IMG/VR virus record: IMGVR_UViG_3300013126_000254
Location: 1 to 23,290 of that record
Strand: one strand, 5' to 3'
Length of the DNA: 23,290 bases
Source of the DNA: a virus
Part shown: positions 1-1,323 of the stretch, piece after piece
Layout of the letters: each line of letters begins with the position of its first letter
How positions within the stretch are numbered: the first letter of the stretch is position 1
Made by a program: the position numbers and the translations under genes
The notes under the pieces: generated by a model
What the model was told of the DNA's origin: nothing
Database searches by the model: none
What the model saw: only the letters and a program-made list of their open reading frames with translations

Positions 1-39
1 ATGGAGCTGGCCATTGAAATCATTGAGGGGCAGGCATGA
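1..39 (+). CDS. C-terminal end of an upstream gene (partial)
   Basis: The window opens inside a frame that encodes 12 residues (MELAIEIIEGQA) and stops at TGA 37-39. This stop overlaps the ATG of the next gene in an ATGA arrangement, which is typical of translationally coupled phage genes. The first codon happens to be ATG, but a 12-residue gene is unlikely, so this is probably the tail of a longer gene lying to the left. Nothing can be said about its function. The GAGGGG in its last codons serves as ribosome binding site for the following gene. Confidence 0.45.
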   Translation: MELAIEIIEGQA

Positions 40-599
40 ACAAGCAACGTCAGGCGCTGGAATTGGCGCTGAAGGCTATCGAAAGTGGTGGCGCTGTGGA
101 AGACATGATGGCTGCTGAAAAAGCCATCGAAGAAGCATTGGCCGAACGAGAACTGTTGCTTGATGAGCGTGCAAGCAGTCAAGCGTGTCACGTTGCGTGG
201 AAGCAATGCGCCAACACTATTGATAAATTTGATGGTGACCCTTACGGCGCATTTACGATGGGTTTCCATGCGGGAATACAGGCGTCAATTAACGCGAAGC
301 ACCCACCAGCGAAACCGGCAGCGTACCTTGATTTGAGTAATAACATTGCATATTCGATGCGCGAGTTATCTAACGAAGATGCGTATGATACAGACGCAAT
401 GGTGCCGCTTTACCTGTCACCACCCATCCGCAAGCCGATGACAGACCATTTGCGTGACGCTACGAAAATGCCACAGCCACTGACGGAACCAGAATTGAAC
501 GCTATTGAGCCTACATGGCCGAATGGATGGGATTACGATGATGTTCTGGAGTTCGTCAGAACGATCGAACGGGCGCATGGGATTAGAGGTGATGAATGA
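36..599 (+). CDS. Phage hypothetical protein, 187 aa
   Basis: I do not recognise a function. The ATG at 36 follows GAGGGG at a good distance and overlaps the upstream stop. The N-terminal 45 residues are helical and charged (QALELALKAIESGG, then AEKAIEEALAERELL). A middle region around 90-125 has the pattern PAAYLDL...MVPLYLSPP, a beta-type segment that I associate with accessory proteins of many phages, often ending in VPLY(T/L). The C-terminal 40 residues (LTEPELNAIEP, then DDVLEFVRTIERAHGI) form another helical unit found at the end of several unrelated early phage proteins. It therefore looks like a modular soluble early protein. It overlaps the methyltransferase start by 8 bases, so the two are probably co-translated. 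There are no membrane segments and no catalytic motif that I can see. Confidence 0.8.
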   Translation: MNKQRQALELALKAIESGGAVEDMMAAEKAIEEALAERELLLDERASSQACHVAWKQCANTIDKFDGDPYGAFTMGFHAGIQASINAKHPPAKPAAYLDLSNNIAYSMRELSNEDAYDTDAMVPLYLSPPIRKPMTDHLRDATKMPQPLTEPELNAIEPTWPNGWDYDDVLEFVRTIERAHGIRGDE

Positions 600-1323
600 G
601 TTGGCATTATTTGCAGGAGGGGGAGGCAGCGTGTTGGCCGGCAAACTCCTTGGCTGGCGCACCTGTTGTGCTGTTGAAATTGATGCCGGAGCCCGTCAGA
701 TCCTATTGGACAGAATGCGAGACGGAATCCTTGAACCATTCCCAATTTGGAATGACGTCAGCACATTCGATGGCAATCCATGGAGAGGGAGCATTGACGT
801 CATCACAGGAGGATTCCCATGTCAGGACGTCAGTATTGCGGGGGGGGGGGCAGGATTGGACGGCGCAAAATCAGGACTCTGGATGGAAATGGCCAGGATC
901 ATTCGCGAGGTTCGACCATCATTCGTGTTCGTGGAAAACTCGCCAATGCTCACTGCTAGAGGACTCGGACGAGTACTCGCAGACTTGGCCGGAATGGGGT
1001 TTGATGCAAGGTGGGGAGTGTTTTATGCGTCCACAGTGGGAGCAGCGCACCATCGAGCCAGACTTTACTTGGTTGCTTACACCGACAGCGCAAAGTTGGA
1101 AAGCATGGACGTTCCGCAATCCATTGGCATTGATCCGAAAGAATCACGCAGACGGCAACTTGCAAGAGCAGTTAATGCGGCTTTACCAGCGAATGACTAC
1201 ACCGCGATGCCAAGAAATCCTGATGATGTGGCCAGAGGGATGGACGGACTCAAAGCCACTGGAAATGGCTGGGTTCCAGCAGTGGCTGCACGAGCATGGA
1301 ACATGTTGAGGATCATGAAATAA
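592..1323 (+). CDS. C5 cytosine-specific DNA methyltransferase
   Basis: This enzyme transfers a methyl group from S-adenosylmethionine to carbon 5 of cytosine in DNA. The conserved motifs occur in the expected order in 243 residues. Motif I (SAM binding) is FAGGGG at residues 7-12. Motif IV is GGFPCQD with the catalytic Cys77. Motif VI is FVENSP at 112-117. A motif VIII-like RARLYLVA lies at 155-162, and a motif IX/X-like GLKATGNGWVPAVAA at 219-233. The region between motifs VIII and IX, where target recognition normally lies, is short. I chose ATG 592 because homologues start a few residues before motif I. ATG 577 is in frame but has no better ribosome site. No restriction endonuclease lies beside it, so it is probably a solitary phage enzyme, perhaps for evading host restriction. 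An 11-G run encodes residues 83-87. A second frame (596-1309) overlaps almost all of it. Confidence 0.93.
   Translation: MNELALFAGGGGSVLAGKLLGWRTCCAVEIDAGARQILLDRMRDGILEPFPIWNDVSTFDGNPWRGSIDVITGGFPCQDVSIAGGGAGLDGAKSGLWMEMARIIREVRPSFVFVENSPMLTARGLGRVLADLAGMGFDARWGVFYASTVGAAHHRARLYLVAYTDSAKLESMDVPQSIGIDPKESRRRQLARAVNAALPANDYTAMPRNPDDVARGMDGLKATGNGWVPAVAARAWNMLRIMK
596..1309 (+). CDS. Overlapping +1-frame ORF inside the methyltransferase gene, 237 aa
   Basis: An uninterrupted second frame covers nearly the whole methyltransferase gene. Its ATG (596) lies 4 bases after the methyltransferase ATG (ATGAATGA), and an AGAGG at 585-589 is at 6 bases from it, better than the 2 bases to ATG 592. The product is Trp-rich and polar. 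It carries blocks I recall from ORFs annotated next to or over phage C5 methyltransferases: SHVRTS (74-79), GSFARFD (101-107), CSWKTRQCSLLED (111-123), YSQTWPEWG (127-135), LTPTAQ (161-166) and WPEGWTDSKPLEMAGFQQW (212-230). The recall is from memory and unchecked. The last block overlies the conserved GLKATGNGWVPAVAA of the methyltransferase, so both frames look constrained. Function is unknown; an accessory partner of the methyltransferase is an inference. It could instead be a by-product of strong conservation in the other frame. Confidence 0.5.
   Translation: MSWHYLQEGEAACWPANSLAGAPVVLLKLMPEPVRSYWTECETESLNHSQFGMTSAHSMAIHGEGALTSSQEDSHVRTSVLRGGGQDWTAQNQDSGWKWPGSFARFDHHSCSWKTRQCSLLEDSDEYSQTWPEWGLMQGGECFMRPQWEQRTIEPDFTWLLTPTAQSWKAWTFRNPLALIRKNHADGNLQEQLMRLYQRMTTPRCQEILMMWPEGWTDSKPLEMAGFQQWLHEHGTC
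840..850 (+). repeat. G11 homopolymer inside the methyltransferase gene
   Basis: Eleven consecutive G bases lie directly after the codons for the catalytic PCQDVSI segment. In the methyltransferase frame they encode Ala-Gly-Gly-Gly-Ala (residues 83-87), in register with the AGxGAGxDG pattern of this family, so the present length gives the intact enzyme. Loss of one G would join the methyltransferase N-terminus to the C-terminus of the overlapping frame. Gain of one G would join the overlapping frame's N-terminus to the methyltransferase C-terminus. Such runs are classic slippage sites in phase-variable modification genes. Confidence 0.95.

Follow-up and report, generated by a model that had tools for sequence, protein, structure and literature searches.

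The window analysed here is a virus record of 23,290 bases, taken at its full length, whose minus strand carries phage portal, major head, head-closure and endolysin genes. Its plus strand carries a C5 cytosine methyltransferase frame (alpha), inside which lies a second open reading frame (beta) in the +1 frame, whose start lies 4 nt behind that of alpha and which spans almost the whole alpha frame; the remaining (third) frame across the methyltransferase gene is full of stops. The features of the locus are the following.

36..599, + strand: upstream gene of 187 aa with no family match; its TGA at 597-599 overlaps the beta start
585..599, + strand: joint start site, with the Shine-Dalgarno-like AGAGGT at 585-590, the alpha ATG at 592-594, the beta ATG at 596-598 and the upstream TGA at 597-599
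592..1323, + strand: alpha, the C5 cytosine methyltransferase frame, ATG 592 to TAA 1323, 243 aa
596..1309, + strand: beta, the +1-frame ORF, ATG 596 to TGA 1309, 237 aa; proposed recognition/motif-IX subunit
610-642 (motif I), 808-828 (PCQ motif IV), 934-945 (ENSP motif VI), 1054-1077 (motif VIII) and from 1261 (motif X), + strand: alpha motifs
840..850, + strand: 11-G tract in the Gly-rich loop that follows motif IV, read as Gly in either frame; possible slippage site
932..1021, + strand: conserved beta block SWKTRQCSLLEDSDEYSQTWPEWGLMQGGE, residues about 112-141, opposite alpha motifs VI-VIII
1064..1195, + strand: variable region of beta with LLTPTAQSWKAW; proposed, by inference, as the target-recognition region
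1196..1261, + strand: motif IX-like segment of beta, TTPRCQEILMMWPEGWTDSKPL, residues 201-222; wobble entropy 0.24 of expectation

Three frames meet at positions 592-599 (ATGAATGA), which hold the alpha ATG, the beta ATG and the TGA of the upstream gene. Translational coupling of beta to the upstream gene, inferred from the position of this TGA over the beta start, is possible, and the spacing of AGAGGT in the window sequence is better for the beta start than for the alpha start.

The alpha frame matches phrog_363 (E 2e-54) and PF00145 (E 5e-30), the latter over profile positions 4-182 of 324 only. P76 and C77 of the catalytic PCQ and E115 and N116 of ENxx are invariant, motifs I-VIII are present as a C5 methyltransferase requires, and motif X follows as GNGWVP at residues 224-229. 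An AF2 model of alpha (pLDDT 85) gave Foldseek matches to M.HaeIII and M.HhaI, with an E value of 6.5e-15 against 1dct. Neither a recognition domain nor motif IX was found in the same chain, with Pfam, PDB-profile and hhalign matches all stopping at motif VIII; between motifs VIII and X, alpha has a short segment of low AF2 confidence without a predicted fold.

Homologues were gathered in five scans, using the alpha sequence, the beta sequence, an alpha alignment in viral contigs, an alpha alignment in GTDB genomes, and a beta alignment. Stops were counted from alpha codon 3 to the GNGQVP motif, excluding the natural stop of beta. Not a single internal +1 stop was present in any of the 194 distinct full-length homologues (194/194), 122 of which (59 viral, 63 from bacterial genomes) had been chosen by alpha alone. 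Within-gene shuffling of synonymous codons gives an expectation of 3.5-4.4 +1 stops per gene, and among the 122 alpha-selected genes about 2 open +1 frames would be expected, against 122 observed. The +2 frame contains about 13 stops per gene. This null is conservative because codon usage already reflects the constraint; on calibration, the ratio of observed to expected +1 stops is 0.987 in 255 flanking ORFs, and five C5 methyltransferases from outside the family, used as controls, carry 7-14 such stops, close to expectation.

The start of beta is likewise conserved, being ATG in 155 and GTG in 7 of the non-redundant genes (162/162), and is directly preceded by a beta-frame stop in 146/162. 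The start codon is kept while alpha residue 2 varies (N, Y, D, R). The first codon of alpha is no start in 18 genes (TTA, CTT, CTA, CTC), with the nearest in-frame alpha start 9-66 nt upstream; in these genes the beta start is unmoved.

Each wobble base of alpha falls at the second position of a beta codon, so that changes synonymous in alpha nearly always alter beta. This base is frozen at N2 (AAT, 100%; beta Met1), N116 (AAC, 96%), A133 (GCC, 100%), G136 (GGG, 98%), R208 (A, 99%), V209, V213 and V217 (GTG, 98-99%; beta Trp), D211 and D218 (100%), A214 (99%) and A222 (96%). Relative to the genes' own codon usage, wobble entropy is 0.20 at codons 2-4, 0.75-0.87 over codons 5-98, 0.60-0.64 at codons 99-148 and 0.24 at codons 206-224. 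Among the 16 members of the clade around the window, conservation over residues 3-148 is higher in alpha than in beta. Between alpha residues 167 and 185 the same clade shows a beta identity of 0.905 versus 0.589 for alpha, and the fast position is the first codon position of alpha, which is the third of beta; the ranges over alpha residues 167-205 are 0.905-0.925 for beta and 0.589-0.792 for alpha. In these alignments, the constraint passes from alpha to beta at the variable region and motif IX stretch, and returns to alpha at motif X. A joint-permutation pair test, which preserves identity by design, was weakly positive (mean z 1.2), suggesting that, except at its start and in its C-terminal half, beta is constrained mainly to stay open.

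A conserved methyltransferase with favourable codon usage might open its +1 frame passively, with no second protein involved. Overlap with a conserved gene automatically conserves some +1 residues, and the weak result of the pair test fits such a passive origin as well; yet stops are absent from 194 genes for which the calibrated null expects about 4 each, wobble bases are 96-100% fixed at beta residues, beta exceeds alpha in conservation over alpha residues 167-205, and the beta start is present in 162/162. A passive shadow ORF was rejected on the stop counts, the wobble conservation and the calibrated null, and we leave it practically no probability. Dual coding at 592-1323 is, in the absence of expression data, almost certainly real, both frames being conserved coding sequence as far as comparison of sequences can establish. 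The initial annotation had proposed two proteins in overlapping frames at this position, and its ORF coordinates, the 237 codons of the +1 frame and the motif blocks it quoted all hold. It had also named two outcomes that would refute dual coding, namely frequent +1 stops in homologous genes and no excess conservation at synonymous sites; neither materialised, with the +1 frame open in 194/194 and wobble bases frozen at the residues conserved in beta.

The same switching of the constrained frame could also arise if the gene encoded a single chain through programmed frameshifting, with ribosomes leaving alpha for the +1 frame after motif VIII and returning before motif X, the +1 start remaining unused. 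The constrained frame does change in exactly that order along the gene, and some actinophage genes (L314, L315, L322) show (L)LPTP stretches in more than one frame. However, two shifts would be required, frameshifting needs neither the conserved beta start nor the openness of the first 100 beta codons, and in mycobacteriophage Rebeuca the +1 part is a separate gene. The conserved start that beta has of its own, read from sequence, favours independent initiation rather than frameshifting, which we consider very unlikely.

Beta matches phrog_1008 (E 6e-15), phrog_35493 and phrog_26627, families that PHROG labels 'DNA methyltransferase' or 'unknown function', leaving the overlap with the catalytic frame unmentioned for many members; phrog_1008 matches both beta-type ORFs and the part of single-chain enzymes from the variable region to motif X. 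Pfam and PDB sequence searches with beta returned nothing significant, none of the beta family members matched PF00145, and the N-terminal part of beta, opposite motifs I-IV, had no family match outside the beta group. In the block at 932..1021, T115, P132, W134, G135 and G140 are nearly invariant, and the wobble bases are frozen. Repeats of (L/W)PTP occur in frame between motifs VIII and IX in the relatives L314 and L316. The C-terminus of beta reads LNPxWxEWLMGWPxGWTDLKPL, and hhalign aligned beta residues 200-218 to the in-frame motif IX of other C5 methyltransferases (probability 91.8, E 7e-7), a short match of 19 columns, its partner being RLAAAFSEWMMGWPEGWVT, which stands directly before motif X in other phage C5 methyltransferases. 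A segment resembling motif IX is carried by beta and is lacking in alpha. AF2 of beta alone was poor (pLDDT 54.5) and gave no usable model, nor was any fold match found for it; this is compatible with a predicted folding of beta only together with alpha, without being evidence for it.

Since alpha lacks motif IX, beta has a motif IX-like segment and single-chain relatives carry the same motifs in frame, we read beta as very probably the recognition/motif-IX (beta) subunit of the same split C5 methyltransferase, its expression and activity being untested. Frame 0 would give alpha, with motifs I-VIII (AdoMet binding and the catalytic PCQ) and motif X, and the +1 frame, from its own ATG four bases after that of alpha, would give beta, with the variable target-recognition region and motif IX. 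Alpha and beta would presumably assemble into the equivalent of an ordinary one-chain enzyme, M.HhaI for example, each supplying one half, and this complex would methylate phage DNA, probably protecting it against host restriction. The production of both proteins, their binding to each other, a specificity set by beta and the anti-restriction role are all inferred. The comparative evidence bears out the genetic link between the +1 protein and the methyltransferase that the initial annotation had drawn; its description of a protein of unknown function keeps the tie to the methyltransferase but gives way on function, where the evidence points to a recognition/motif-IX subunit.

Beta could instead have a role of its own, as a regulator or an anti-restriction factor for instance, and simply happen to share its DNA with the methyltransferase gene. 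It is consistent with this that the N-terminal part lacks a family match outside the group and that no library gives beta a tested function, but the C-terminus of beta matches motif IX, the same motifs stand in frame within other phage methyltransferases, and L311 and L313, which are C5 enzymes with a standard in-frame motif IX, have no +1 ORF. An independent protein seems very unlikely to us, and the split enzyme remains the preferred reading.

There is precedent for a C5 enzyme of two subunits that places motif IX in a polypeptide of its own. In M.EcoHK31I (YGGCCR), a two-polypeptide C5 methyltransferase, the larger polypeptide holds motifs I-VIII and X and the smaller one motif IX, with the predicted TRD placed in alpha (PMC3404938). 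The window resembles it in that alpha has motifs I-VIII and X but not IX, while beta has motif IX, albeit by a short match. The assignment of the TRD to beta is an inference, and is at odds with its predicted place in the alpha of M.EcoHK31I. The beta of EcoHK31I is reportedly about 176 aa long, with its start inside alpha, and Lee, Kam and Shaw are said to have found in 1995 that it is encoded in an alternative frame inside alpha. If so, a further likeness is that beta lies within alpha in the +1 frame in the window and in the 194 homologues. In contrast, the 237-aa beta of the window begins only 4 nt behind the alpha start and covers almost the whole of alpha; also, EcoHK31I is part of a restriction system, whereas the pair described here is in a phage genome. 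M.AquI (CYCGRG) is likewise one enzyme formed by two polypeptides (PMC3404938), but there one chain is split once and the second subunit holds both IX and X, whereas in the window motif X is in alpha and motif IX in beta, so that the M.AquI type does not apply. In phage ShiLan, an HNH endonuclease lies out of frame in a methylase gene (PMC11855218), so that there too one phage methylase gene conceals a second protein in a different frame. The ShiLan protein is an inserted homing endonuclease, whereas beta lies over the catalytic motifs and is apparently part of the enzyme; no HNH family match for beta was found in Pfam, and beta covers conserved methyltransferase motifs with no insertion. A literature search on overlapping methyltransferase genes in phages returned nothing beyond mentions of M.EcoHK31I and the paper on the ShiLan HNH endonuclease, and no description of the prevalence, or of a near-complete overlap with starts four bases apart, was found in the literature searched.

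Besides viral contigs, genomes of Pseudomonadota, Chloroflexota, Spirochaetota, Verrucomicrobiota, Planctomycetota and others have the arrangement, as judged by record titles. Among the phage and plasmid matches examined, which were not exhaustive, beta was never seen without an overlapping or adjacent alpha. Relatives with other layouts were also found. In mycobacteriophages Shauna1 and Akhila, a single chain carries motif IX in frame together with the preceding LLPTP repeats, and in mycobacteriophage Rebeuca gp80 ends after motif VIII while gp79, in the +1 frame, has LPTP, IX and X, a layout like that of M.AquI. More distant phage relatives, from Porphyromonas (L307) and among the mycobacteriophages (L310, L318, L321), have N-terminal +1 stops and an internally started beta of roughly 170-190 aa. 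Their layout looks like that of EcoHK31I; the window clade differs in that beta reaches back to the alpha start.

In Gordonia phage CheeseTouch (L322:1209-2243), Streptomyces phage Raleigh (L315:922-2481) and Mycobacterium phage Shauna1 (L314:1489-2856), motifs IX and X are in frame 0, and the LPTP-repeat stretches and the SETLP/SETWP block are open in the +1 frame; the variable region thus seems to have moved between frames in the course of evolution. The +1 frame of Paenibacillus phage Norbert (L312:1495-2532) is open over the second half only, with WPTP repeats and LNPDWVECLMGFPIGWTDI, pointing to partial dual coding in a Firmicutes phage too. At L054:2995-4503, the +1 ORF has 502 codons and the methyltransferase frame stops after 207, reflecting either a much longer beta or an insertion.

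Annotation of these genes in GenBank is inconsistent, giving the beta frame in phage phPA-G, beta as 'DNA methyltransferase' in Bipolar, and alpha in others. The +1 product appears as 'hypothetical protein' or 'DNA methyltransferase' in PP083311.1 (23175-23903), NC_028823.1 (43797-44348), phrog_1008, phrog_35493 and phrog_26627, in places replacing the catalytic frame.

Apart from the 11-G tract at 840-850, no homopolymer in the window reaches a length of 8. Relative to the flanks, alpha/beta has a 13-fold higher density of G/C runs of at least 8. The offset of 840-850 is a hotspot, accounting for 17/31 G runs in relatives. Tracts of 9-14 G recur at this loop in the window and in L002-L005, L008-L011, L243, L247, L266, L269 and L305. 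Four contigs from the closest relatives (L008-L011) have a 9-G tract that fuses the N-terminus of alpha to the C-terminus of beta; its length breaks both frames, as does that of the 14-G tract in L266. Such changes in length may reflect phase variation, or sequencing or assembly error. A second recurrent G tract, of 9-11 G, lies at or near motif I (FAGGGGS) in L042 and L048 (offset about 24 from the alpha start) and in L104 (offset 45).

With very strong statistics, the arrangement is supported in hundreds of phage and prophage genomes, together with a likely function. We suggest, as a tentative proposal that may well not hold in full, that these genes form a phylum-spanning class of phage and prophage C5 methyltransferases in which the recognition/motif-IX subunit lies almost wholly inside the catalytic gene, with starts four bases apart; that they are among the largest and best conserved families of long same-strand overlaps in prokaryotes; and that the recurrent poly-G could, through slippage, switch the two subunits off together. 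Annotation software usually discards long same-strand overlaps in prokaryotic genomes. Cloning or recoding in a single frame might make many 'orphan' phage C5 methyltransferases appear inactive, since the second subunit does not survive recoding. The sharing of one sequence by two proteins could also be studied in this family, as a natural system in which the frame bearing the constraint changes along the gene.
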